Source of the DNA: Sycon ciliatum
Taxonomy: Eukaryota > Porifera > Calcarea > Leucosolenida > Sycettidae
Direction: 5' to 3'
NCBI RefSeq assembly: GCF_964019385.1
Contig: NC_088645.1
Span: 46,492,304-46,556,303 of the forward strand
Length of the DNA: 64,000 nt
Translations under genes and position numbers: made by a program
Notes under the pieces: generated by a model
The model's input: only the letters and a program-made list of their open reading frames with translations
Database searches by the model: none
What the model was told of the DNA's origin: nothing
Shown here: piece after piece, positions 1 to 61,192 of the stretch
How the letters are laid out: each line of letters begins with the position of its first letter
Position numbering within the stretch: the first letter of the stretch is position 1

Positions 1-94
1 AATATTCCGAAGAAATTTCTCAAAAAGCTCAAACCAAATTTGATTTATTCGAAAATGTCTCAGTACTCTGTCAGTTTTTTTCTCTGTCAGTTTT

Positions 95-222
95 GTGCCT
101 AGTTATTGCACTTTCTGACTGTATTATAGCATCCAGTTACAGTGATGGAGAGTTACTCTTAACTCGTATCCATAATGTCCTTTTCCTTTCTACATTTAAT
201 TATGGCTCAACATCCGACTTCT
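95..222. repeat. Partial copy of an inverted-repeat (MITE-like) family
   Basis: This stretch matches one arm of the hairpin repeat seen complete at 33393-33650, again split at 57557-57675 / 60832-60935, and in short form at 49235-49400. Shared landmarks are a GTGCCTAGTTATTGCAC-like block and the run ending in GTATCCATAATGTCC. Only the right arm is present; the left arm would lie before the window or is lost. No coding capacity is seen. Confidence 0.7.
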
Positions 223-1717
223 TTTACAGATTTGGTATTATGGAACGTTTGGAAACCCCTCGATAAGCGAAAGCTTTTGGGGAATCTAAAAATTACAAAT
301 AAGTGTCCGCCACACTACTTCCGGGGCACCTCTGTTTGTGGCGCCCATACTCGTACTCTTCCTCAAGAACGTTTCGTGTGCAGGGTGCAAACTCACGAAT
401 ACTTGTATCAGGGGGAAAACTCTACAGCCTCAGCCACGCAACGTGTCCTTTTTCTTCAAGATGTCAAGTCTCACAACATCCTATTATACATACATAGAAC
501 ACTGCGGCAAGATTTCGTTGACGATAGGGTAGTGCTTTCAGTGTTAGCAAGTGGATATAGTGTTGCATCGGCACCGTAAGGCACACACGGCCCGTTCCAA
601 ACAATAAACAAAGATAAATGAAAAAAACAGGGGACGAAGGAACAGCAGAGGAAGCATCTAACATGTACCCAATACAGTACGTACCAGCAGCGTCGAAGTT
701 CTCATGATGACGGCTGGCCTGGTTGCTAACAGCCGCTGAAGCGTTCCGAGCAATCCACGTAGATTGTTGCTATTCGCGCAGCCAGACAGTATTATTGCGC
801 CAGTGAATGTCTATCCAGAATGCTCCATACCATTGTAGGAATAAACTAAACAGACCTGCAGCTATTCTCTAGATCTCCAGCCTTCTTCAGCGCCGAAAGA
901 AGTCAACGCAGGTTCTCATAGGGCACCTGACGACGTGAGCCCCATCGCACCATCGATCAAGCCATGGTGTAGTTCGTACATCCCGCTGAACAGCATAGCA
1001 GTGCATTCATGTCTACACAGTAAGCATGCAGCCCATCAAGAGGGATCATGTTTGTCTGTGGTGACCCGAAAGAGGATCATATGGCTGATCGAAAACCTTT
1101 ATGGTATCCAAATGCGCGTTGCGGGTCTGGGGCGTCTTCCGAAGTGTCCGGAGTGAGCCCTTTTGGTGCCTTTTTTGCACTTAACCCTTTTTGCCCAGCA
1201 CCGGCGCAACCCGTCGTAAAGCCTAGTTCATATTCGACGGAACGCTGACGGTACGGGACGTAAGGGCCTGTCGGGAAGGCTAGGCTGGGGTGAGCTGTAA
1301 AATCGTGTACGATTCGTAGAGTCTACGACATACAGTACTGCAGTCTTTGCGTCGTTCAACAGCGAACGGCGTCAGTCATAAGGCACGGTCCGTGACAGGG
1401 TAACTTTTGGACCTATTTTCTTGTTTTGGAACTTCTTTTCAATTATTTCTTCTTGGATTAAGCGGAATCAAGTTCACAATACCAGTTTTTCATGAATAAT
1501 CAAAAAAGTAGCTTCGAAAGGTGTGCCATTCAAATAATAGCTCCCGGAAACGATAAAACAGTTCGTCTGTCACGCTCCTGATCTATCCCTAAATACCATA
1601 AATTACATCAGACCTTATCTTGCTAAAATTCAAGTCAAATCGTGTTAGCCATTCTGCGAGTTATCATGGGAAGCACAGGGTTCGAAATGCTAAAGATTTC
1701 TTCAAAAAAAATCCAAG
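223..1717. other. No recognisable gene; probably includes the 5' UTR of LINE A
   Basis: Open frames here are short, overlap one another and resemble no family I know. The last few hundred bases directly precede the LINE ORF1 start and probably hold its 5' UTR and internal promoter. The 5' end of the element cannot be fixed because no target duplication was found. Confidence 0.4.
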
Positions 1718-2761
1718 ATGTCGCGAGTAGTTCGGAATTTACTTAGTCGTGTTACCTCCCCTCCTCACGCTGGTCGTGGGGAAGGTAACACTCCAGAGCT
1801 TTTAGAGGATCCCGACATTGTGCCACCTACACCAGTGAGGAAAGTCGGAGAAAAATCCAAGGTGCAGGATCGGTCCGACAGCCCCACCGAAATTCCGGCC
1901 CCCAAGCGCCAGACAACTGGAAACCTACCATCGCCTTCGACCCCGTCTCTACCCGCATCCGGAGAACTCAATATGGACATGGTGAGCCTAATAAATGGCC
2001 TGAGGTCGGACCTGCGTTCCGACCTCAGTAATGTTGTGGCAGACGGACTGGCGCCAGTCCATGAGAATTTGCAAAACATGACAAATTTGTTGCGAAAGCA
2101 GGCCCGTGACATAGACATACTCATGAAGAGAGTGGACAGCCTGGAACGGGAGAACACTGGCCTACGCAGAGAGGTCAGCGAGTGGCGCCAAGACGGTGGT
2201 AAACCAGCCATTCTTGACAGGATGTCCCGATTGGAGGTACACATGCGGAACCAGCCTCACAACGAAACCGAACCCGGCCTGAACCGAGAGACCGTGAATG
2301 GCACTACTCAAGATCTGGTCGAGGAACTCCTGAACCAGAAGGGAAGGGAAAACAACGTACTATTGCACGGCGTGGCGGAATGTCAGGGAGAGGACCTCCC
2401 CTCACTCGCACGAACCCTTGTCCCGTCAAACACACTGATCCAAGAGGTGCTACGTATTGGAAGGCCAAGAGAGGACACAAACGTACGCCCCAGACCGGTC
2501 CTCATTAAAACAAACAAATCTGGAAAAGCCTCTCTCCTAAGAAATAAAATGACGCTCCGCCACAATGGTCAACCGGTTTACGTTAGCCACGACCTAACTC
2601 CCTCTCAGCAGGCACGAAGGAGACAGGTACTTCCCACATTTAAACAATTGCGAGGGCTTGGCACTGCTTGTTCCCTTCCCTACGACAAAATATTGGTACA
2701 AGGGAAACCACTGGATGACGCTGAATTGGCGAGGTTACTTCAGGACAAGCCTGCACAATGA
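1718..2761 (+). CDS. LINE A ORF1 protein (coiled coil plus RNA-binding C-terminal domain)
   Basis: 347 residues. Such proteins trimerise and coat the element RNA in the retrotransposition particle. The N-terminus (MSRVVRNLLSRVTSPPHAGR) is shared in pattern with LINE B ORF1, supporting this ATG. Residues 1-85 are Pro/Ser-rich and probably disordered. Residues about 85-175 form a coiled coil with heptad leucines (INGLRSDLRSDL, DSLERENTGLRREV). Residues about 205-340 resemble the L1-type ORF1 RRM/C-terminal region (ENNVLLHGV; RPRPVLIK; YVSHDLTPSQQARRR). No CCHC knuckle is seen. It ends in TGA (2759-2761), after which the same frame stays open into ORF2. Family-level assignment is by pattern, not by search. 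Confidence 0.85.
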   Translation: MSRVVRNLLSRVTSPPHAGRGEGNTPELLEDPDIVPPTPVRKVGEKSKVQDRSDSPTEIPAPKRQTTGNLPSPSTPSLPASGELNMDMVSLINGLRSDLRSDLSNVVADGLAPVHENLQNMTNLLRKQARDIDILMKRVDSLERENTGLRREVSEWRQDGGKPAILDRMSRLEVHMRNQPHNETEPGLNRETVNGTTQDLVEELLNQKGRENNVLLHGVAECQGEDLPSLARTLVPSNTLIQEVLRIGRPREDTNVRPRPVLIKTNKSGKASLLRNKMTLRHNGQPVYVSHDLTPSQQARRRQVLPTFKQLRGLGTACSLPYDKILVQGKPLDDAELARLLQDKPAQ

Positions 2762-5761
2762 CGAGTCCCCGCACAACAGAATACTATTGTCACCAACGCA
2801 TGCAGCACTCCCCAGAGCATCTCTACCTCTACGCCACAGATAAGTATCACTCATTCAAATGCATGCAATACATTATTACTCTTTAATCTTACTATAGCAC
2901 ATATTAATATCTGCAGCCTATTGAATAAGCTTAGGGACATTCACTATCTTCTGCACAAACACAACATTGATATCCTTGCTGTTACGGAGACATGGCTGAC
3001 AGCCACCTCGACAAACAGTGCCATCTTTCTACCAGGCTACGACGTCCACAGATTTGACAGGACAAGCAAAAAAGGAGGCGGCGTTTGCTTGTACATCAGA
3101 AATAAGTTTAAGTACCGTCAACTAAGTACAATATTTGACATTGAAACTGCAGCAATTCACCTGCGGTTGGATGGAAATCCACTGAATATCATCTGTACAT
3201 ATCGACCACCCTCAACACCAGTGTCGTTTTGGCAACAACTCACCAACACTGTTGATGACATCGCAGCACAGACACCAAAATCGTCCCACACCATTGTTCT
3301 TGGTGACTTCAATGTGAACATACGAGACACTCAGCATCCTCACCACAAGCACCTGCAGACATTCTGCCACACAACCAGTCTCCATAACATAGTGATATCG
3401 CCGACTAGACTTCCTACTGAATCCATCTTAGATCTAGTACTAGTACCCAAGACATTCGACAACACCCACCTATCTCAGGCCACACAAGGTAGACACTTCA
3501 CCGTGAACAGCTGCACAGTCGAGCCATGCGATGCATCGGACCACCAGCTTGTCCTAGTTGACATGACAGTAACCCTACGTTCCCTCCCAAAGGAGCAGTG
3601 GGTCCAGACAAGAAAGCCGCCCATTAGATCGATTGATATGAGTACCTTTAGAGACCAACTGGCATCCGCATTGCTCGACACATCCACTGACACCACAACT
3701 ACTACATGCCAACGAATTCAACTATTCCAACACAACGTATCTGAGGTCCTGGACAAGCACTGTCCAATGACAACCGTCAAACTACGTGGCAAATACAAAC
3801 CTGCCCCTTGGGTAGATGACGAGCTCCGGAAATTGTTGTTCAGGAGGAAGCGTTCGCACAGGAAAATGAGAAAGAACCCAGCTGACCCGCAACTAGTCCA
3901 GAACTTCCGGACACTGCGGCGGCAATGCAAACTTCTCACGCGTCGCAAGCAAGCCACATTCTTTCAGAACGAATTTATTTACAATAGGAAGAACCCCAGA
4001 GGCCAATGGAATGTTCTAAACACTCTGCTTGGTCGAATCAAGATCCACCGTGAACCAGGTGCAGAGGTCAAAGCCATCACAGCTACATTCTCCGAAATAG
4101 TATCACCGGGTTCGCCAACTACACCAACCGCTACAACGCACCCTACACTGCCACTAGGTCCGATACCTGAACACAACTTTTGCACTTTCGACCGCATCCC
4201 GACAAGCCTCGTAGAATTCTACCTAAAGCGGTTGGACTGCCGTAAAGCGTGCGGCCCCGACAACGTACCCGCAGCAATCTACAAGTCTGCAGCTGACGGG
4301 ATTGCCCCTGTTCTCGCTCCGCTATTTTCAGACTCACTACAATCTGGAACTTTCCCAACTCCGTACAAACAGGCTAACGTTCGGCCAATACATAAGCGAG
4401 GTGATCACAGCGATCCTACTAATTACAGGCCAATATCGCTCCTTCCGCAAATGTCAAAGCTGTTAGAACGCTGCGCCCTTGACCAGCTAATGGAATTCGT
4501 GCGTGACGCTCCACAAGCAAACCAAGCACTGCCGCCTGAACAGTTCGCCTACAGAAGACAACACTCCTGCGATGACTTGCTAGCCTTGGTGGCGAATGAC
4601 TGGCAGCAAAGTCTGGATGCCGGTAAATTTGTGGTGGCAGCGTTTCTTGATATGTCGAAAGCATTTGACACGGTCAATCACAACATGCTCCTGCAGGAGC
4701 TTTTTGAGATCGGCGTCGGAGATAGCGCCCTGCAATGGTTTGCGAGCTACCTACGAGGCAGACGGCAGCGAGTGGTAACACGTACGTCCAGAGGTGAACT
4801 GTACGAAGCTCACAGGGGAGTTCCTCAGGGATCCACCCTCGGACCTGTGCTCTTTAACCTATCTGTACGCAAATTGCCCTCGGCAGCATCTTCCAGCATG
4901 GTGCGCCAGTACGCTGACGATGTCGCCCTGTACCTAGCAGGCCGCAACCTACAACAAACTACCGAAGAACTGGCCCGAGATGTGTGTCGTATCAGGGACT
5001 TCCTCAGTGAACGAGGACTAATCCTGAATGCCAGCAAGACCCAGTTCATTGTGTTCCACTCCAGATCGAAAAAAGTATGCTCCTCCCTCCGACTAACCAT
5101 TGACAATGTCTCAATTCCACCAGCGACCACCGTCAAGTACCTTGGTATGACCTTTGACCAGCACCTGACATTCGCTGACCACATCAGTGCCCTTGAGCGA
5201 AAGGTAGGCGACAAGCTAGCTGTGTTTCGTAGAATCCGTGACCGTCTAACAATTGATGCAAAGAGAACCTTCTACTGCGCGTTCATACAGGCTCAATTGG
5301 AGTACGGTTCCAATGCTTTTTATCACAGTCTGCAGGCTGGGCAACAAGATCGCTTGACTTGCCTCAGCAACCGTGCAGTTAGAACTGTTTTTGGTTATCC
5401 AAGGTTCTGTGACATTTCTACTATTCTAGCCAGATACCACCTAGCTTCTATCTCCTTACGTTTGAGATTCAAATTGTTCGTACTTATTTACAGATCATTA
5501 CATAAGGTGTGCAGCCCGCTCTTAACAGACTGTTTTGTGACTAGAGTCAATGCCACACACACAGCGTCAATCACCCGCTCGCAGGTTACTCTGTCTCTTG
5601 CTCTTCCCCCGGCTAATAATCGCTATGGCTTGTACGCATTAAGCTTCTTAGGTGCAGATCGCTGGAATTCGCTCCCTGCTTCTGTTCGTATTTCCTCCAC
5701 GCTATCAGACTTCCGCTCATCTATACAAAAACATATAGGGTACCCCGTAAGAAGGCCTTAG
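2762..5761 (+). CDS. LINE A ORF2 protein: APE endonuclease and reverse transcriptase
   Basis: The enzyme nicks target DNA and reverse transcribes the element RNA from the nick. The homologous region begins at about 2897 (HINICSLLNKL). No ATG precedes it in this frame; TTG at 2921 is the first near-cognate codon, and the frame is open back to the ORF1 stop. Numbering from 2921, endonuclease motifs are TETWL (about 22), GDFNVN (127) and SDHQLV (205). RT motifs are YRPISLLP (about 505), AFLDMSKAFDT (572), GVPQGSTLGP (631) and YADD (663). The C-terminus ends GYPVRRP, a pattern also in LINE B and the 30.2-kb fragment. All catalytic motifs are intact and there is no internal stop, so it could be active. 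Translation probably depends on readthrough or re-initiation at the ORF1 stop. Confidence 0.92.
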   Translation, partial: RVPAQQNTIVTNACSTPQSISTSTPQISITHSNACNTLLLFNLTIAHINICSLLNKLRDIHYLLHKHNIDILAVTETWLTATSTNSAIFLPGYDVHRFDRTSKKGGGVCLYIRNKFKYRQLSTIFDIETAAIHLRLDGNPLNIICTYRPPSTPVSFWQQLTNTVDDIAAQTPKSSHTIVLGDFNVNIRDTQHPHHKHLQTFCHTTSLHNIVISPTRLPTESILDLVLVPKTFDNTHLSQATQGRHFTVNSCTVEPCDASDHQLVLVDMTVTLRSLPKEQWVQTRKPPIRSIDMSTFRDQLASALLDTSTDTTTTTCQRIQLFQHNVSEVLDKHCPMTTVKLRGKYKPAPWVDDELRKLLFRRKRSHRKMRKNPADPQLVQNFRTLRRQCKLLTRRKQATFFQNEFIYNRKNPRGQWNVLNTLLGRIKIHREPGAEVKAITATFSEIVSPGSPTTPTATTHPTLPLGPIPEHNFCTFDRIPTSLVEFYLKRLDCRKACGPDNVPAAIYKSAADGIAPVLAPLFSDSLQSGTFPTPYKQANVRPIHKRGDHSDPTNYRPISLLPQMSKLLERCALDQLMEFVRDAPQANQALPPEQFAYRRQHSCDDLLALVANDWQQSLDAGKFVVAAFLDMSKAFDTVNHNMLLQELFEIGVGDSALQWFASYLRGRRQRVVTRTSRGELYEAHRGVPQGSTLGPVLFNLSVRKLPSAASSSMVRQYADDVALYLAGRNLQQTTEELARDVCRIRDFLSERGLILNASKTQFIVFHSRSKKVCSSLRLTIDNVSIPPATTVKYLGMTFDQHLTFADHISALERKVGDKLAVFRRIRDRLTIDAKRTFYCAFIQAQLEYGSNAFYHSLQAGQQDRLTCLSNRAVRTVFGYPRFCDISTILARYHLASISLRLRFKLFVLIYRSLHKVCSPLLTDCFVTRVNATHTASITRSQVTLSLALPPANNRYGLYALSFLGADRWNSLPASVRISSTLSDFRSSIQKHIGYPVRRP

Positions 5762-50386: not shown

Positions 50387-50798
50387 TATTATTATTATTA
50401 TTATTTGAACTGGTTTGAGGGAAAAGACACAAACGGGAAAAGTCTGAAGAAAAAATTGACTGTCACCACCAGGACTCGAACCAGGGACCCTCGCTTGTAG
50501 CCAGCGATGCTCTAACCACTGAGCTATGGTGTAGTCGTCATCCCAGCAGAGACCGTTCAACATCTTCTTCAGACTTCGTAACTCACACTTCCTGTGAATC
50601 CACACAGGCGGGTGGGACGCAGCCCTCACTGTAACCCACACACTTCACGTACAAACTAGCACGCGGGGAGCCCCAAGTCATAAAATTTGAACTGGTTTGA
50701 GGGAAAAGACACAAACGGGAAAAGTCTGAAGAAAAAATTGACTGTCACCACCAGGACTCGAACCAGGGACCCTCGCTTATTATTATTATTATTATTAT

Positions 50799-50914
50799 TT
50801 GTAAGAAAGGGTTTGCCCCCCACACCGGAGCTCGCGCGAATAGCGCGAGCTCCGGTGTGGGGAGCAAACCCTTTCTTACAAATTATCGCCGAAGTCGCAA
50901 CCACTACTTCGTAT
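50799..50914. repeat. Hammerhead-element arm pair inserted in array unit 2
   Basis: A near-perfect inverted repeat of 36-40 bp arms (50799-50835, 50842-50882; GTAAGAAAGGGTTTGC ... complement) followed by ATCGCCGAAGTCGCAACCAC, all from the 13.6-14.6 kb element. ATT microsatellites lie on both sides. The ribozyme itself is missing. Confidence 0.75.
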
Positions 50915-51271
50915 TATTATTATTATTATTATTATTAACTGGTTTTGAGGGAAAGAGACAAACGGGAAAAGTCTGAAGAAAAAATTGACCGTCACCTCCA
51001 GGACTCGAACCAGGGACCCTCGCTTGTAGCCAGCGATGCTCTAACCACTGAGCTATGGTGTAGTCGTCATCCAAGCAGAGACCGTTCAACGTTTTCTTCA
51101 GACTTCGTAACTCACACTTCCTGTGAATCCACACAGGCGGGTGGGACGCAGCCCTCACTGTACCCACACACTTCACGTACAAACTAGCACGCGGGGAGCC
51201 CCAAGTCATAAAATATTAACTGGTTTTGAGGGAAAGAGACAAACGGGAAAAGTCTGAAGAAAAAATTGACC

Positions 51272-51343
51272 GTCACCACCAGGACTCGAACCAGGGACCC
51301 TCGCTTGTAGCCAGCGATGCTCTAACCACTGAGCTATGGTGTA
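51272..51343 (-). pseudogene. tRNA-like sequence (representative of 8 in the array)
   Basis: 72 bases folding as a cloverleaf: D arm GCTC/GAGC, anticodon stem TCGCT/AGCGA with loop GGCTACA, and T arm CCTGG-TTCGAGT-CCTGG with one central mismatch; 5 of 7 acceptor pairs form. Base 33 is G instead of U and the formal anticodon would be CTA, so a decoding tRNA is unlikely. Equivalent positions: about 50460, 50991, 51553, 51834, 52115, 52396 and 52677. The pol III boxes look intact, so transcription is possible. Confidence 0.7.
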
Positions 51344-52822
51344 GTCGTCATCCAAGCAGAGACCGTTCAACGTTTTCTTCAGACTTCGTAACTCACACTT
51401 CCTGTGAATCCACACAGGCGGGTGGGACGCAGCCCTCACTGTACTCACACACTTCACGTACAAACTAGCACGCGGGGAGCCCCAAGTCATAAAATATTAA
51501 CTGGTTTTGAGGGAAAGAGACAAACGGGAAAAGTCTGAAGAAAAAATTGACCGTCACCACCAGGACTCGAACCAGGGACCCTCGCTTGTAGCCAGCGATG
51601 CTCTAACCACTGAGCTATGGTGTAGTCGTCATCCAAGCAGAGACCGTTCAACGTTTTCTTCAGACTTCGTAACTCACACTTCCTGTGAATCCACACAGGC
51701 GGGTGGGACGCAGCCCTCACTGTACCCACACACTTCACGTACAAACTAGCACGCGGGGAGCCCCAAGTCATAAAATATTAACTGGTTTTGAGGGAAAGAG
51801 ACAAACGGGAAAAGTCTGAAGAAAAAATTGACCGTCACCACCAGGACTCGAACCAGGGACCCTCGCTTGTAGCCAGCGATGCTCTAACCACTGAGCTATG
51901 GTGTAGTCGTCATCCAAGCAGCGACCGTTCAACGTTTTCTTCAGACTTCGTAACTCACACTTCCTGTGAATCCACACAGGCGGGTGGGACGCAGCCCTCA
52001 CTGTACCCACACACTTCACGTACAAACTAGCACGCGGGGAGCCCCAGGTCATAAAATATTAACTGGTTTTGAGGGAAAGAGACAAACGGGAAAAGTCTGA
52101 AGAAAAAATTGACCGTCACCACCAGGACTCGAACCAGGGACCCTCGCTTGTAGCCAGCGATGCTCTAACCACTGAGCTATGGTGTAGTCGTCATCCAAGC
52201 AGAGACCGTTCAACGTTTTCTTCAGACTTCGTAACTCACACTTCCTGTGAATCCACACAGGCGGGTGGGACGCAGCCCTCACTGTACCCACACACTTCAC
52301 GTACAAACTAGCACGCGGGGAGCCCCAAGTCATAAAATATTAACTGGTTTTGAGGGAAAGAGACAAACGGGAAAAGTCTGAAGAAAAAATTGACCGTCAC
52401 CACCAGGACTCGAACCAGGGACCCTCGCTTGTAGCCAGCGATGCTCTAACCACTGAGCTATGGTGTAGTCGTCATCCAAGCAGCGACCGTTCAACGTTTT
52501 CTTCAGACTTCGTAACTCACACTTCCTGTGAATCCACACAGGCGGGTGGGACGCAGCCCTCACTGTACCCACACACTTCACGTACAAACTAGCACGCGGG
52601 GAGCCCCAAGTCATAAAATATTAACTGGTTTTGAGGGAAAGAGACAAACGGGAAAAGTCTGAAGAAAAAATTGACCGTCACCACCAGGACTCGAACCAGG
52701 GACCCTCGCTTGTAGCCAGCGATGCTCTAACCACTGAGCTATGGTGTAGTCGTCATCCAAGCAGAGACTGTTCAACGTTTTCTTCAGACTTCGTAACTCA
52801 CACTTACTGTGAATCCACACAT

Positions 52823-53024
52823 TATTATTATTATTTTTATTAAATGTGTCATGTCGCTTGCATGTATAAAAGAAGGCGCCATCGCCTGTTTGTGTTGCGA
52901 CTTTAAAATAAAACTCAACAACAAGCTGGAGGCAGTTCGTTTACTTGAACTGACGCCAACTCACCCACCAACCACCCGCGATTAACGCACTACACTGAAA
53001 ATTGAACTGAGCAAAAAAAGTACT
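52823..53024. other. Spacer with TATA and AATAAA-like signals
   Basis: After an ATT microsatellite: GTATAAAAGAAGGCGCC (about 52864) and TTTAAAATAAAAC (about 52903), a spacing like a compact LTR or promoter-polyadenylation pair. No partner copy is in the window. It is downstream of the RAG1-like gene's stop codon. Confidence 0.35.
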
Positions 53025-56000
53025 TCAGGACTGTTCCTTTCTACTTCGTTTGCGAGGAGCTGGGACCAGAGGTCGTAAACTGGGGAGAGCTGCGATAAGG
53101 TGCTGCTGGACAGTGACTCGAAGCCTTTGTAGAGGATCTATAATGCCACCATGACGGAGAAGAAGGGTGTTGAACTCTTTGTGAATGGATTTTGCCCCAT
53201 GCTCAGCAAGCAACCCAAGACCTACTTTGAACTTCCGCATGAACGGAACTAAATGACACTCCAAAAGGTGCAGCTTTGGAGTAAACCGGCCAAGGCTACG
53301 AGGAACAGTCTCCCTACGAACTGACGCCATAAACTTGTCGATATCGCTGTGCAGCTGGTCGCAAACTTCTGCTGAGACTGCTGAAGTTCCGGAAAATGTG
53401 ACGTGACACTTTGCGTATTGTTGGAGCTTTGGAGTAACCCGGCCAAGTCTACGAGGAACAGTCTCCCTACAAACTGACGCCATAAACTTGTCGATATCGC
53501 TCTGCAGCTGGTCGCAAACTTCTGCTGAGACTGCTGAAGTTCCGGAAAATGCGACGTGACACTTCGCGTATTGTTGGAACAACAGCTTGTATCTGCTGGA
53601 TACAGCTGAAGCATCCGCAGCCAGAGAGGGTGCACGCTCCTCAACAATTGCAATGAATGAGGTCAAGTCAGTGATGACGGAGTCTGTAAGCGCGTGGTGG
53701 ACATGGTTGCCAATAAATGAACCCCCATGGTACACTTGCCGGCAGATTTTGTGCTTTTGTAAAGCAGCCTCAACATACTGGTTGCAAGGCCCGTTGTCGA
53801 GCTTTGCATTTGTGAGTGTCTGCTCGTGTTTACTGATGTCACCCTGAAGAGCTGTGACCTGCTGCTGCATTTGCGTGGCAGCATTCTGGAGGTTACTAAC
53901 CAAAGCCTGGAGGTTGTTTTGCTGCTCCGGATTGCCAGAATGGAGAGCAACCCATTGCATCTGGCCAGCCAAGACAGCAAGCTGACTAGATTTGTCTTCC
54001 AGTTCTAATATTTTTTTCTTACATTCTTTCTGATCTTCTATCAGCTTTTTAAAGGCAGCTGAATCTGCCTCACTCACCTCTAGCTCGCATGCCATTTTCA
54101 AATCAATGTGCTTACACTCCTTGACAAAGGAGTCAAAGACCCAGATTCCGAGATCGAGATGTAAGGCTGGCAGGCACACATGATCAATAGGAACTGAGAG
54201 CATGGCAGGACGTATGGCATTGAAGAAATGCTTTGCTTGGGATAAGCGCCCACCGTCAGCCATGAATTGGCCATGGTGAGGTGAGAGTGTGTCGAGGGTG
54301 CGTGGCACTGGCTGCTGCTCCCAATCAGCGGGGCACTGTTGTATCTGTTGCTTTGTACTCAAGCAGTGCAGACACGGATGCACTCCTGCAGATCCTGACA
54401 GGCCATAAACAGTCGTTTGAAACTAGTAGTCGCCAAACAAAATATGGCGAAACGACTTGTTCTGCCATGTGGTTGCAGCAAGGCTGTCAATGTGTTGTAC
54501 AAGTGACGCAAAAGCAGTGGAAAGGTTGCCCGGGGTATCATTTGCATTGAACACAAGGATAGGGATGGTGTTTTTCACAGCATTTGGGTGAGGGATGTTG
54601 CAAATTTGGAAGGATAGTTTGAAAGACCCGCCCCCATGATCTCCCCCTAACTTCACCCAAATCTGATCCTGCGGGATAACACCATCGTCGGTAAGCATAC
54701 CAGCCTCCTCGTACTGGTCCAAGAAGAAAAGGACAATCTCTGTGAGGTTGCATGCCACAACCATTGGTGACGAAACTACATCACCACTCGGAAGAGTGAA
54801 AGGGCACATTTCGGAAGCATATAATGCAGGTACCTCTTCCGCAAGTTGCTGCCGCATGGTGTTCTCCGACTCAATCTCACACCCAAAGGTCCTGAGCCAC
54901 CTCCGCAGTTTCCTCAGCTGAATCCAAGGCATGTGCAGATCTGCTTTTAAAGCAAGGGCAGAATGAGATGAAGGTGCACAAGGAGACACACCGGCAGATT
55001 TGAGCAAATTGGCACGGTCTATCTGACCCATACTACGTAGCTCATAGGCATCTTGCTTACCGACACCAACAGTGCCCTCACAGACTACCTCTTTCGCCTG
55101 TCGGATTTCCGCCGACCTCCTCTGCATCTGCCTTACAGACACAGTATCACCGCTACCTTGCGTCGTACGCACATACAAAGGAGGGGTACCACCCGTCCGT
55201 AACTCTAGCCTACCATCATTGGACTTTGACTGTACCAAGTGGGTAGTCAAATACTCCGCTGCCTCCCCACGAAGTTTGCTGGGTGACGCTCTCAATACAT
55301 CTGCGACAGTAGTCGACCTGGTCACACAGGCAGGGCCACTGAATGCATTGAAAGGACAGACCTTCATATGCGTCTGCAATGAGAACAGTTTCATGCTGTG
55401 CTGGCAGCCAGAAAGAGAGGACACGTAATTGTCACACCTCACTGGCAGATGAGAAAGACATTCCAGCTCAAATGATGACAACTTTCTCATTCCAGATGCA
55501 TACATGTCACACATGCAAGAAGGGCAAGTACGCGTAGTGCTGAGGTGCTCCCAAACACATGGCACACCAACTAGCTTGCTACAACAAGGCGTCGTAAGTG
55601 CATTGTCGGCGACGTGCCGGCATACGCTACATGTAACAGAAGGGAAAATAAATTGAAAGCGATCAGGTGACAGCACCTGGTTCGCTTTGTAGGAAGGCGA
55701 CCCCATGTCCAAAAGCACCTGCATGCTTTCAAGATCAATGCCAGTGGATGTGGCACTGTCGTCTGCTGACGCTGCCGCGGAAGCCGACGAAGACAATGCA
55801 GAGTGCTGTGTACTACTATATGTAGGCATTTTTTCTTTTTTGGTTTCCTCCCACCCTTGCTGCTACTTTTCATGTTCTTGCAGAACGTACAGTCTGGCTC
55901 TGCATGGGCTACCTAAGCTACAAGTTTGCCTGCACAGCCACCACCACAGTGCCTGTACCCCGTTTCCTCACTACGTAAAATGACTTGATGGCAAGGGCTA

Positions 56001-56172
56001 CAGATGTAGCGTGGATGTATGTGTGCCTCATCCTTGGTGACATCGCACTCAAAGACATGCTGTATGCCAACGGAGTATTCGTGAGCTTCATGCTTGTTTT
56101 CTTGGCATGCGACGAGAATCTCTCCCCACCAATTCTACACACAGCTGAAAGGAACTGCACGTGTTGATCCAT
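53025..56172 (-). pseudogene. RAG1-like (N-RAG type) transposase gene, recently inactivated
   Basis: From ATG 56172: (1) a RAG1 N-terminal-like zinc region: CRIGGERF (normally CRICG), then in the next frame IHPRYICSPCHQVI and EPDCTFC; (2) a basic patch GGRKPKKKK; (3) a RING from about 55640 with CSVC, PCC, CVWEHL and CPSC, then a second finger (VRCDNY...CQHSMKLFSLQTHMKVC); (4) a catalytic-like core with Asp in KLGGDHGGGSFK (about 54640), Asp in FGDY (about 54430), HPCLHC, a coiled-coil insertion, YHGGSFIGNHVHH, LHLLECH (about 53260) and Glu in LLAEHGAKSIH (about 53190). Lesions: frameshifts at about 56052 and in A-runs at 55829-55841; TAG at 55913-55915 and 54423-54425. Between lesions the frame is open for over 450 codons twice, so decay is recent. 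Terminal repeats were not found. RAG1 kinship is by motif order and spacing, not by search. Confidence 0.75.
53275..53580 (-). repeat. In-frame 153-bp tandem duplication inside the RAG1-like gene
   Basis: Two adjacent copies encode a 51-residue segment beginning QQYAKCHV and ending VTPKL / FTPKL, just before the LHLLECH motif. The copies differ at only a few positions, so the duplication is young. It would extend the region just before the H2 pair, and may be specific to this copy. Confidence 0.85.
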
Positions 56173-56667
56173 ATTCAATGCAAAGTTGGCATCACAAAGG
56201 CGCCTTGGTCTAAGGCAAAGTACGTCGGTCTAGCAAGATTTGTGCAGAATTGGAAACTAGACCAGCAAGGCAAGCACAGAAAACTAAAAACTAACCCAGG
56301 AAAACAGGACGAAGAGCAGCAGCAGCCTTTGGAAAACGACCTCGGGTGAACCCAGCTCCTACGATACGACTTCAAAAAAGAAAACTCTCAACACTGGAAA
56401 CGGCTCCAACAGGAAAACGAAATGGAGAAAGAAGATCGTTCGAGCGATCGAGTTGTCAGCATTTTCTCTTGCATCCGCTGCACCGGGACTGGGTGTTCTG
56501 GATGGTGTGTGAGCGACGTGGCGAGGTAGTATCGATGGGTTTGAGACGTGGGTGAGGATCGCGAAATTGAGGCTCTCAGCGAAAAAATTGAAAAAACACC
56601 GTTCATTGAGCTGGACTCGAACCCGGGGCTTCATGTCGCTTTTCGCGAGTTTTGAACAGCCGTGCTC
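56173..56667. other. 5' flank of the RAG1-like gene; tRNA-like B box
   Basis: Includes a GC-moderate stretch with no clear gene. At about 56600-56665, minus strand, CCGGGTTCGAGTCCAGC matches a pol III B box and is followed by T-runs, so a tRNA-derived SINE fragment may be present; no clear A box was found. Transposon ends for the RAG1-like gene should lie here or beyond, but no inverted repeat with the 52.8-53.0 kb side could be seen. Confidence 0.4.
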
Positions 56668-57677: not shown

Positions 57678-60600
57678 CCTTTTTTTTTTTTTTTTTTTTT
57701 TTTTTAATGTTTATTTGAATTCGGATAGCTCAACAGTACAGAAGTACAACTACAAAGAGTACCGAATAGAAGGCCCCGAGAACGGGAAACCAAAAAAAAA
57801 CAACAAAAAAACAAAAACAGCAACATCAAGTTACTGATTATGCACATTGCTTGAAAGCAAATCACAACAATGATTAAGAGTTAAGCTGTCTTTTAGCCAA
57901 ATAGCCAATTTGACGCGGAAATCTGCGATAGTAGTGCAGGACTTCAGGTCGTCTGGTAAATAATTCCAAACAAGAGCCGATTTACTTGAAAAGGACAGAA
58001 AGCCAGACATAGATCTATAGCGATTGATACTCATGTTATGAGTTGTAGAGCCGCGAGTGGTTCGGGTAGACGTACAGATGGGAAAGAGGGACTGCAAGCA
58101 AACAGCCGGCTTAATACAGTAACAGTGGAAAATGAATACAAGGAACAAAAATACTGATCGATATTGGAAAGAGGAAACATTGAGGTGGTGAAGAAGTGGC
58201 GTGATATTAGCTTGGGGTGATGCGCCACAAGCAACTCGTACAGCGCGCCGGTGGAGTGAGGCTAGCTTGTTTCTATTTTTAGCGGATATAAACGAAAGGT
58301 ATACAGGGAGAGCATATTCTAGATCAGGCTGAATAACACCGACAACGAAAGTACGGCGGGCAAACAGGTTCATCTGGCGGAAAGATCGACGCAGTACACC
58401 GATCTTCCGTGAGGCTTTCCGGACGACATTGTTAATGTGTTGGTCAAAAGACAGCTTATTGTCAACAACGACTCCTAAGCATCTGGTGCTTTCCACTTCC
58501 CCTAGCGTAACATTTGACAAGGTGATTTGCAGTTGTTGCCTTTGTTGTTGTTGCTGACTCCCTGTGGCACGTTTGGGATGGATTTGCATGACAACGGTTT
58601 TGTCGGTATTTATCTGCATACCAATGGAGCCAAGGTGGTTGTTTAGTATCTCCAGTGCCGATGACAACTTGGCTTCGGAACGCGCCTTCGACGGATCACT
58701 AGAGTAGACTGTCTTGTCATCTGCGAACATCAGTAATTTTGAACCCACTGTCTCCGCAAGCCGGGGAAGGTCCCTCAGGTAGACATTAAAGAGGGTAGGG
58801 CCTAAAATACTTCCCTGAGGAACTCCTCGAGACACTGCAAGACTTGAGGACTGGCTGGCTGGCGTGACGACACGCTGAGATCTCCCGGCGAGGTACGACG
58901 CAAACCAACGCAGGGCGCTTGCATGAACACCCATGCCATGGAGCGCAATGAGTAACTGTTGATGCTGGACGCGATCAAACGCCTTGCTGAGGTCGACAAA
59001 GGCTACACTGGTAGTCTCTCCGCGGTCCTGGGCCAGTTTCCAATCATTTACAGCAAGTGTGAGCAGTTGTGTCGTGGAGCGAGCTGGTCGGAACCCAAAT
59101 TGGTGATCATGGAGGTGATTTTCGATGGTCAAACTGTCACATACCTGATTTAGAACCAGGCGTTCCAGAGTCTTAGCCAGAATCGACGTGAGTGACACAG
59201 GACGATAATTCGAAGGAGAAGTAGGATCGCCCATACGGGATTTCAATATCGGCGTGACATTAGCCAACTTGAATTGTGTCGGGAACACAGCAGTGCACAA
59301 AGAGGTATTAAATATTAGGGTGAGGGAGAAGGCGATAACTGGTGCAACGGCCTTCAGGATGCTCGGGAGGAGACCATCTGGCCCAGGCGCTTTCGTACCG
59401 TCGAGTTTCTGAAGGTGCCGAAGTACCTCATCCTCAGAAATAGGGCGAAACTCGTGCAAGTCACACGGTCTTGAGGTACCACTTGGAACAACATAAGCCG
59501 GGTTCGGATCTGACACAATACTATGGAAATACCTGTTCAAGGTATCTGCCTGGACGAGAGGCTCAGTTCTAGGGTTTGTGCGCCGGGTGACTGAGTTGAT
59601 GGTGCTCCAAAGACGCCTAGGATCTCGCCGGTAATCGTCACAGATGGAGCGGAAGTGGGCATTTCGGAGTTGGCGATAAAGGTTATTGCATTTGCTGCGC
59701 AAAACTTTGAACTCCTTCTGTAGAACCGTACTACTGCAGTCAGACGAGCGGTACTTTCTGTAGACGGTTTTACGTCGCCTAATGAGAGCTAGTAATTCCG
59801 GTGTCATGAATGGGCACTTCTTCCTTTTTCCAGGGGATTGTCTCCGTGATATTATGTAGGGTGCAACCACATCCAAGGCGTCTTCAAATTTTCCTTGCCA
59901 CTCTTCTAGCATTACATCGACCGACGGGGACGAGAAGGATCCGAGATCAGAAATTGACAATAAATGAGAGAGATCAGAGGCAGAGGCCTTACTGTAATCA
60001 CGGCGGCGGGATCGATATATTTGTCCTTGTGTTGGAATTGACTTCGGAAAAATAATACTGGTGTGAACAAACTCATGATCGGTGAACTCACAGGAGTGAA
60101 CGCTTCCGTGCTCAACACAATCCATGTTCGTTAGTACACAGTCGAGAAGTGTTTTAGATGTAGGTGTGATCCGTGTAGGGTGCGTAATCATATTCTTCAG
60201 ATCAAGGGGAAGTAGCAGGTATGTGTTCAAATTGTCAAAATGATGCGTTTGAGGGGACAAGAAATCAACATTTAAGTCGCCCATCAGAATGAGATCTTCG
60301 CCCTGAATGTCATACATGACTTGCTGTAAAGATTGCCAAAAAGCCGCTGGTGCGGACGGTGGCCTGTAGAGACAGCCAATGAGGAATGATTCACCTGCTT
60401 CTCGTTTTTTGGAACGCAACCAAACCATTTCCAGGTCGATGTGCTGAATCAACATCCGCTTAAACCCAAGTTGCAACCTGCTGTAAATCACTACACCGCC
60501 GCGCTTTTGGCAAGGTGTTCCATTTGTACAGGAGCAGTTGTAATTGCACTTTCTGTCGAGACGGTGCATTGAGAACCCCCGGATGTCGACTTCTGAGTCT

Positions 60601-60806
60601 GAGATGCTGTTGTCGAGCCATGTTTCTGATACTGCTAAAATGTCTAAGTTATGGACCCGGACAAGCTTGGACAACACGAAGAGCTTATTTCGCAAACTAC
60701 AAATATTAATATGACCAATAGATATAGAAGAATATGTAATGCAATGAGGGGAAGGGTGTGAAGAACTTGCGTGGGGCACAAAGGGTTGGGCAAGAGGACC
60801 TAGTTT
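57678..60806 (-). mobile_element. LINE C, 5'-truncated, with poly(A) tail
   Basis: Inserted in the loop of the R2b hairpin MITE; copy a (33508-33520) shows the uninterrupted sequence. The 3' end is a run of about 25 T on the plus strand (57681-57705). A short ACCT duplication is consistent at the two borders. Unlike LINE A and B it uses poly(A), so it belongs to a different lineage. It starts within ORF2 and has no ORF1. Confidence 0.85.
57831..60806 (-). CDS. LINE C ORF2: APE endonuclease and reverse transcriptase
   Basis: About 990 codons without a stop. Endonuclease motifs: HINICSLRNKL, SETWLD, GDLNVDF and TDHEFVH. RT motifs: YRPVSLTSILAKTLERLV, AFVDLSKAFDRVQHQ (about residue 600), GVPQGSILGPTLFN (about 660) and FADDKTVYSSD (about 693). 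The C-terminal region ends near SSNVHNQ. No ATG lies before the endonuclease motifs, and the open frame runs to the insertion border, so only the first few codons are lost. Glutamine-rich SQQQQQRQQ is encoded at about 58530-58555. The intact frame means recent insertion. Confidence 0.9.
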   Translation of the reverse strand, partial: KLGPLAQPFVPHASSSHPSPHCITYSSISIGHINICSLRNKLFVLSKLVRVHNLDILAVSETWLDNSISDSEVDIRGFSMHRLDRKCNYNCSCTNGTPCQKRGGVVIYSRLQLGFKRMLIQHIDLEMVWLRSKKREAGESFLIGCLYRPPSAPAAFWQSLQQVMYDIQGEDLILMGDLNVDFLSPQTHHFDNLNTYLLLPLDLKNMITHPTRITPTSKTLLDCVLTNMDCVEHGSVHSCEFTDHEFVHTSIIFPKSIPTQGQIYRSRRRDYSKASASDLSHLLSISDLGSFSSPSVDVMLEEWQGKFEDALDVVAPYIISRRQSPGKRKKCPFMTPELLALIRRRKTVYRKYRSSDCSSTVLQKEFKVLRSKCNNLYRQLRNAHFRSICDDYRRDPRRLWSTINSVTRRTNPRTEPLVQADTLNRYFHSIVSDPNPAYVVPSGTSRPCDLHEFRPISEDEVLRHLQKLDGTKAPGPDGLLPSILKAVAPVIAFSLTLIFNTSLCTAVFPTQFKLANVTPILKSRMGDPTSPSNYRPVSLTSILAKTLERLVLNQVCDSLTIENHLHDHQFGFRPARSTTQLLTLAVNDWKLAQDRGETTSVAFVDLSKAFDRVQHQQLLIALHGMGVHASALRWFASYLAGRSQRVVTPASQSSSLAVSRGVPQGSILGPTLFNVYLRDLPRLAETVGSKLLMFADDKTVYSSDPSKARSEAKLSSALEILNNHLGSIGMQINTDKTVVMQIHPKRATGSQQQQQRQQLQITLSNVTLGEVESTRCLGVVVDNKLSFDQHINNVVRKASRKIGVLRRSFRQMNLFARRTFVVGVIQPDLEYALPVYLSFISAKNRNKLASLHRRAVRVACGASPQANITPLLHHLNVSSFQYRSVFLFLVFIFHCYCIKPAVCLQSLFPICTSTRTTRGSTTHNMSINRYRSMSGFLSFSSKSALVWNYLPDDLKSCTTIADFRVKLAIWLKDSLTLNHCCDLLSSNVHNQ

Positions 60807-61192
60807 CAACACATCTCCGTAGCGCTAACCGACAGCCTTCCAATTGTGCCTAGTTGTTGCACTTTCTGACTATATAATTATAGTATCTGGTTACAGTGAT
60901 GGAGAGTTACTCTTAACTCGTATCCATATGTCCTCTTCCCTTCTACATTTATTATTGGCTCAACATCCAAGTTTCAATAAGTTTTGGAAGCAATTTGTCC
61001 TAAAATAGTCAAAATGTCACAGTTTCCTTTGTTAGATCTAAAACTAATACAAGAAGCACTGATATTTTAAAGCTAGCACTATTGGAGGCGTGATTACGTG
61101 AGCAGCGAGCAGTGCGATAGCAAGTGTAGATTGGAGAAATGCAGGTGAGAAAGGTACAATTATATGAGTGTTGGTATGTGAGTGTTGGTATG

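Follow-up and report, generated by a model that had tools for sequence, protein, structure and literature searches.

A dead Chapaev transposon of the sponge Sycon ciliatum and its intact relatives with an apparent RAG1-type domain layout

Introduction

The origin of the zinc and RING half of RAG1, the enzyme responsible for cutting the antibody genes of vertebrates, has been explained in print either by fusion with a transposon that consisted of the N-terminus only or by descent from an ancestor that was already complete. What kind of gene, then, is one from a sponge in which both halves of RAG1 seem to be present? The gene in question lies at 53025-56172 on the minus strand of a 64,000-nucleotide stretch of the Sycon ciliatum genome (contig NC_088645.1, positions 46,492,304 to 46,556,303; hereafter the window, to which all feature coordinates refer), and it combines a RAG1-type zinc region, a RING and a D-D-CxxC-HxxxxH core within a copy of a Chapaev element. 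A preliminary description had read it as a RAG1-like gene that unites both halves in one protein, in a transposase lineage separate from ProtoRAG and Transib. We report here that the window locus is a dead copy of a sponge Chapaev transposon. We consider it very probable that the element was an autonomous cut-and-paste DNA transposon and that its intact relatives, 3.7-4.1 kb in length, carry the RAG1-type layout.

Results

The surviving part of the copy occupies 52913..56664 (minus strand, as are all features of the copy given below) and corresponds to element positions 1-3627 of 4092. It retains only the 5′ terminal inverted repeat, CACGGCTGTT (56655..56664), a terminus that is identical in L002-L006 and L008-L010 and differs in L007. 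The window copy and the intact copy L002 share 97.1% of 3,599 aligned bases; homology between them ends at 52913, and the last 465 bp of the element, including the 3′ terminal repeat, are unmatched. The coding region consists of two long open segments in one frame, 54426-55862 (479 aa) and 53025-54422 (465 aa), separated by a single in-frame TAG (54423..54425) at a place where intact copies have a Glu codon; the N-terminal zinc pieces lie upstream in a shifted frame, and the transposase-frame stop codon of the open reading frame is at 53025..53027. The first long segment matched the Pfam model DUF1280 (2.4e-15) and, weakly, a RING. Further damage relative to L002 includes 1-bp deletions in the gene at 56104 and 55835, deletions of 18 bp and 6 bp, and a second nonsense TAG at 55913-55915. 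One RING Cys is replaced by Gly, the Glu that aligns with RAG1 E962 (53190..53192; all 12 complete relatives have Glu there) is replaced by Lys, and a 153-bp tandem duplication (53349..53501) is not present in intact copies. Thus, the statement that one protein joins both halves of RAG1 applies to the intact copies, which hold them in a single frame, and not to the window copy, whose frame is broken and interrupted by TAG codons.

The preliminary description had proposed looking for intact copies in the same genome, and these proved to be numerous. An assembly-wide search returned 549 candidate places, of which 89 were scored, and in 60 of the 89 scored matches the frame was unbroken for 1,000 aa or longer, one frame being excluded because it crosses a stretch of N. 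(This is a 2,445-aa frame at C10:9814323, which had been considered as a larger gene.) Thirteen long frames were tested by Pfam: 12 complete copies, each with a single unbroken frame of 1,014-1,089 codons, and L016, which ends in another frame. DUF1280 (PF06918) scored above the Pfam cut-off in all 13. In family A, to which the window copy belongs, the element measures 4,092 bp and its frame 1,034 codons, and the elements of families C and D are 3,843 bp and 3,749 bp long. Eight family A copies match the window copy at 94% protein identity over the whole query. Pairwise, the genes differ at 0-6 of 3,102 bp in family A (six of the eight copies, L005 and L008 being excluded for indels), at 1-22 of 3,042 bp in family D (seven copies) and at 1-4 of 3,168 bp in family C (three of four copies, the degenerate L020 being excluded). 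Copies that are so nearly identical point to recent movement. The 11 other complete proteins share 38-43% identity with L002, and some are closer among themselves (L036, L041). The group thus seems to be old and diversified, and its present insertions young. What appears to be new here is an abundant, intact and recently mobile radiation of Chapaev in a sponge; we found no report of these sponge elements in the literature searched, which excluded Repbase and subscription journals.

The ends of the elements, read by eye in 15 copies, support the same assignment. Both ends were found in 13 (L002-L004, L018, L019, L023-L029 and L044), L007 had neither within one mismatch and L017 had no 5′ end. 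The shared terminal inverted repeats for which the preliminary description had suggested a search are perfect 10-bp repeats of the form CAC...GTG, CACGGCTGTT in family A and CACTGCTGTT in families C and D, and the deletion derivative L044, described below, also has perfect 10-bp repeats. Exact 4-bp target duplications flank 10 of the 13 copies with both ends (AGGC, ATGC, TAGT, CAGT, ATGT twice, TGCT at L028, CTCC, AGTC and TGCT at L044), or 9 of 12 independent copies, the flanks of L026 and L029 being the same. In one copy the duplication is 5 bp long, and two (L025 and L027) have both ends and no duplication. A 3-bp TWA duplication was found in none of the 13. Chapaev elements are described as having CAC...GTG termini and 3-4-bp duplications, with TWA duplicated in Chapaev3 (PMC4079192), and Transib as having 5-bp duplications (PMC8355894). 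The observed ends and duplications fit Chapaev, not Chapaev3 or Transib. The single 5-bp duplication, AGAGG, belongs to the family A copy L003 at C1:56797289 and has the length given for Transib and RAG. By eye, likeness of the termini to a recombination signal sequence was limited to the CAC and to a CACAGTG inside the family D elements.

Sycon gene sets and contigs of ena, lgn and jgi origin also contain full-length relatives; one homologue, P0014, is the uncharacterized Sycon ciliatum protein LOC135819357. In a 36-row tree the sponge proteins and the full-length ena, lgn and jgi relatives were grouped together (100/100), apart from relatives of lancelet, Nematostella and Hydractinia, with the outer branching order unsure because of long branches. 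The EukProt entry P0035 fell on L017 at zero branch length, which indicates that the L017 frame is present in a Sycon gene or transcript set. The Chapa, RING and DUF1280 regions could be aligned in the Nematostella protein P0022, where PF12560, the RAG1_imp_bd model of the RAG1 N-terminus, reached only 11.6 bits.

How close is the N-terminal half to that of RAG1? A profile of the 12 complete sponge proteins was compared with all PDB sequences, and among the best 60 of 189 matches the first was full-length mouse RAG1, at 3e-25 (profile 9-291 on RAG1 98-377). The region before the RING contributes specifically to this likeness: the RAG1 N-terminal chain 21wb_A, which has 137 residues and no RING, matched the profile at 8e-12, and PF12560 was above its cut-off in 9 of the 13 long frames (below it in L030, L035, L040 and L042). 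In the window copy this zinc region, the Chapa domain, lies at 55880..56172 (limits from the L002 alignment), where it is broken by the deletion at 56104 and by the change of Trp to TAG at 55913-55915; a 73-aa fragment of it matched PF12560 at E 7.1e-5, with 23.0 bits against a cut-off of 23.3. The first zinc motif reads CRxGG in 12 of 12 complete proteins and CRxCG in RAG1. The RING follows at 55515..55631 and, in the window copy, where one zinc Cys is the Gly noted above, has RAG1 as its top PDB match (E 0.004) and a match to zf-RING_2 under the cut-off (E 0.036). In L002 its pattern is CxxC-x11-CC-x4-C-x2-C-x10-CxxC. Its cysteines are invariant in the 12 complete proteins, and because the usual RING His is missing from the CC-x4-C part in 10 of the 12, zinc may be bound differently here than in other RINGs. 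A C-C-H-C zinc finger after the RING (55356..55436), invariant in 12 of 12 complete relatives, aligns with the zinc finger of the RAG1 dimerisation domain. We conclude that these comparisons establish homology between the N-terminal half of the sponge Chapaev proteins and that of RAG1.

The core half carries the residues expected of a RAG1-type nuclease in the same order. Without exception, the 12 complete proteins have a D-D-E triad whose last two members enclose a CxxC and an HxxxxH. In the window copy the first catalytic Asp, in GGDHGGGSFK (54639..54641), aligns with RAG1 D600 in a global alignment, one further RAG1 alignment placing D600 a few residues away. The second, in FGDY (54429..54431), aligns with D708, the zinc CxxC in PCLHC (54363..54374) with C727 and C730, and the zinc His pair in LHLLECH (53253..53270) with H937 and H942. 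Every motif that the preliminary description had pointed out was found on the minus strand, and so were these spacings: the FGDY Asp is followed at +19 and +22 by the two Cys, as in D708, C727 and C730 of mouse RAG1, and the two His are 5 apart. Chance does not account for these motifs: at their Asp, Cys, His and Glu the 12 complete relatives aligned do not vary. The catalytic Glu chosen in the preliminary description, 17 residues after the second His, was the wrong one of a pair. RAG1 E962 aligns with the second Glu of an E-x3-E motif, AEHGA(E)SIH in intact copies, both Glu of which are invariant in the 12 proteins; this is E980 in L002, 21 residues after the second His, compared with 20 in RAG1.

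A helical, heptad-like insert of ~95 residues, a predicted coiled coil (53793..54080, limits by eye), lies between CxxC and HxxxxH, which are 316 residues apart in L002 and 207 in mouse RAG1. With the insert removed, the end-to-end core alignment with RAG1 scored 31.0, compared with a mean of 3.1 (SD [standard deviation] 2.3, maximum 11.0) for 100 column shuffles and 6.0 for the reversed profile, and it matched D600, D708, C727, C730, H937, H942 and E962. Because L044 had been picked for its RAG1 match, the test was redone without it and gave 29.7 (mean 3.3, SD 1.9, maximum 8.5), a score that none of 100 shuffles reached. With the insert kept, the local score of 27.9 was reached by 1 of 100 shuffles (maximum 35.3). 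A profile of 30 family proteins also gave one gapped alignment with RAG1 (E 9.5e-25), which begins in the zinc region and extends to position 826 of the RAG1 profile; the E value is carried by the N-terminus.

Several results weigh against the view that the whole protein is related to RAG1. The core profile found no RAG1 in PDB at E 10, and all 11 of its weak PDB matches lay in or beside the insert, 10 of them being coiled coils of spike proteins. PF12940, the Pfam model of the RAG1 core, was not listed for any of the 13 long frames at E 0.1. A core-only profile comparison with 18 vertebrate RAG1s gave E 0.044 (probability 1.2), and the core against one mouse RAG1 sequence gave E 0.014. With the insert kept, the global score fell to 6.2, which 8 of 100 shuffles reached, and all catalytic and zinc residues of RAG1 coincide in one alignment only once the predicted coiled coil is removed. 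The limits of this insert were set by eye, with knowledge of where RAG1 lacks it, and column shuffling loses local order, so that we regard the core alignment as supportive and not as proof. In the N-terminal half, the RING alone does not set RAG1 apart: zebrafish RAG1 (3.3e-12) is followed in the PDB ranking by a RING2/BMI-1 double-RING chimera (9.4e-12), TRAF6 (1.1e-10) and the RING-only mouse RAG1 1rmd (1.4e-9), and RING models of Pfam mostly fell under their cut-offs, passing them in 2 of 13 long frames (L030 and L037). Overall, the evidence for the core is mixed, and its link to RAG1, weak by standard tests, is weaker than that of the N-terminus.

One sponge copy passes the cut-off of the RAG1 core model of Pfam. 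L044 (around G000 C9:19280864-19281268) is a ~2.3-kb, internally deleted Chapaev (positions about 983-3287) in which both terminal repeats are present and TGCT is duplicated. It retains the RAG1-type N-terminus (48.5 bits), with CRVCG at the first zinc motif, as in the CRxCG of RAG1, and the C-terminal end of the core. Among the seven candidates scored, L044 was the sole match to PF12940 reported in the Sycon assembly (26.4-27.6 bits, cut-off 25). Its 227-aa C-terminal piece had 16 PDB matches, all of them RAG1 or RAG1L (the best at 5e-5, and 15 of the 16 at 6e-4 or better), in an alignment with RAG1 that covers HxxxxH and E962. This deletion derivative, which also appears to be new, suggests a possible route to elements with the N-terminus only, such as N-RAG-TP.

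Other features were observed around the copy and in related proteins. Eight Rfam tRNA matches lie at 50461-52749 on the minus strand, seven of them called by ARAGORN with CUA as anticodon, so that UAG stops would be read by them. The majority fall in a 281-bp tandem array at 50933-52821 (6.7 copies, 99% matches), near the place where the Chapaev copy has lost its 3′ end; the array is probably a tRNA-derived satellite. On the other side, a 997-aa open frame at 57834-60824 (minus strand), with matches to RVT_1 (6.9e-37) and Exo_endo_phos (1.7e-9), looks like a frame of a non-LTR (long terminal repeat) retrotransposon. Two predicted proteins, P0048 (Sycon) and P0011 (EukProt), include parts of the Chapaev family to which the window copy belongs, joined to an EF-hand protein and to a PF08695-containing protein; they are either exonised copies or annotation errors.

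Discussion

Two accounts of the RAG1 zinc and RING half can be set beside these data. In the published proposal, the N-terminus of RAG1 derived from an N-terminal-only element, N-RAG-TP, that was fused to Transib (PMC8355894). In the other account, to which we give somewhat less than even odds, the earliest animals would already have had the whole RAG1 layout in a single transposase, without RAG2, and sponges would have kept it in a form that was still mobile recently, with N-RAG-TP being an internally deleted Chapaev and not a separate donor. If N-RAG-TP is a deleted Chapaev, RAG1 would have needed no fusion to gain its N-terminus. With many intact, near-identical copies in Sycon and no RAG2 partner in sight, the complete-ancestor account becomes testable at the bench.

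The most probable rival holds that recombination between Chapaev and RAG1-type elements led to an exchange of the N-terminus, in which case the full layout was not ancestral to both. In favor of an exchange, the N-terminal similarity (3e-25) is far above that of the core (0.044), and an exchange agrees with the description of Transib as having no N-terminal region (PMC7204232) and with the proposed fusion. However, Chapa domain, RING and core stand in the same order in all 12 sponge proteins and, by alignment, in Nematostella P0022, the core residues align as well, and unequal rates of change could account for the contrast between the two halves. We regard an exchange as possible but less probable than not.

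The remaining alternatives are much less probable. That the element is a RAG-like transposon of the ProtoRAG/Transib kind might be argued from RAG1 as the top PDB match, from L044, which exceeds the cut-off of a RAG1 Pfam model, and from the one 5-bp duplication; yet every long frame has DUF1280 and none has PF12940 at E 0.1, 4-bp duplications prevail, with 5 bp in 1 of 13, and L002 (3,761 of 4,092 bp), the only copy checked for a RAG2-like gene, has one stop-to-stop frame of at least 200 aa, although a gene split by introns would escape this check. On DUF1280, duplication length and the lack of a visible RAG2-like gene we rejected this membership, which is very improbable. Domestication of a transposon as a host gene is equally improbable: sequences of this kind do occur among Sycon gene models and in EukProt (P0014, P0035, P0043, P0045), and the predicted host-gene chimeras P0011 and P0048 could be read in the same way, but many near-identical copies lie at separate places with terminal repeats and target duplications, and the window copy is broken. 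Finally, generic RING/TRAF fingers, the explanation that the preliminary description had set against its own, are scarcely credible as the source of the N-terminal likeness even though the RING2/BMI-1 chimera and TRAF6 rank among the RAG1 chains by RING alone, because the specificity comes from the stretch that precedes the RING, which by itself matches a RAG1 chain without any RING and exceeds the PF12560 cut-off in most long frames.

A mechanism may be sketched for the autonomous Chapaev element that we prefer. Its protein runs from a zinc-rich Chapa domain and a basic linker through the RING and zinc finger and a putative DNA-binding or pre-catalytic region to a probable RNase H-like D-D-E core that holds the CxxC/HxxxxH zinc site and the predicted coiled-coil insert. 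By homology with the CMC group and RAG, a dimer of the sponge protein would pair the two terminal repeats, and the RNase H-like site would cleave at their CAC ends as RAG and Transib do, perhaps with hairpins formed on the flank as in Transib, and insertion would follow with a stagger of mostly 4 bp. Dimers would be kept together by the RING and zinc finger, the RING might have ubiquitin-ligase activity like that of RAG1, and the helical insert may give an additional dimer contact.

Comparison with known systems places the sponge family closest to Chapaev. N-RAG-TP of Aplysia resembles it in bearing a RAG1-like N-terminus on a transposon, but N-RAG-TP has, by its description, N-terminal sequence only, whereas the intact sponge copies encode a full transposase; L044 is intermediate in form, with N-RAG-TP taken here from its description. 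Chapaev3, the Chapaev subgroup described with 3-bp TWA duplications (PMC4079192), differs in that the sponge copies have no TWA. Transib has a related D-D-CxxC-H..H-E core according to published classifications (PMC4411706, PMC12730594), but is described as having no N-terminal region (PMC7204232) and 5-bp duplications (PMC8355894). Vertebrate RAG1 and invertebrate RAG1L (ProtoRAG) share with the sponge proteins the zinc region, the RING/zinc-finger dimerisation domain and a D-D-C2-H2-E core in the same order, and RAG1L is described as carrying N-terminal zinc motifs, with a RING domain in molluscs (PMC7204232). In contrast, the sponge elements make mostly 4-bp and not 5-bp duplications, have a long predicted coiled-coil insert and no RAG2-like gene in sight, and in the 13 long frames the RAG1 Pfam model does not reach the core.

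The separation from ProtoRAG and Transib claimed by the preliminary description is borne out by Pfam and by published classification, which put the elements in Chapaev through DUF1280; the lineage is, however, not newly recognised, Chapaev elements being known already from other animals. DUF1280 was equated with Chapaev and placed in one clade with RAG1 in 2014 (PMC3985635). Kapitonov and Koonin described in 2015 Chapaev transposases that carry a Chapa domain followed, in two subgroups, by a RING as in RAG1, and inferred a complete ancestor (PMC4411706). EnSpm, Mirage, Chapaev, Transib and others were grouped as CMCT in 2025 (PMC12730594). Compared with Chapaev of the CMC/CMCT group, and with the published Chapa and RING subgroups as they are described, the sponge elements differ in their host and in that 12 distinct complete proteins come from one genome, and they agree in domain order, DUF1280 core, CAC...GTG termini, 3-4-bp duplications, CxxC and HxxxxH. 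On these features we conclude that the sponge family consists of Chapaev members, of a known superfamily and with a known layout, that are well preserved.

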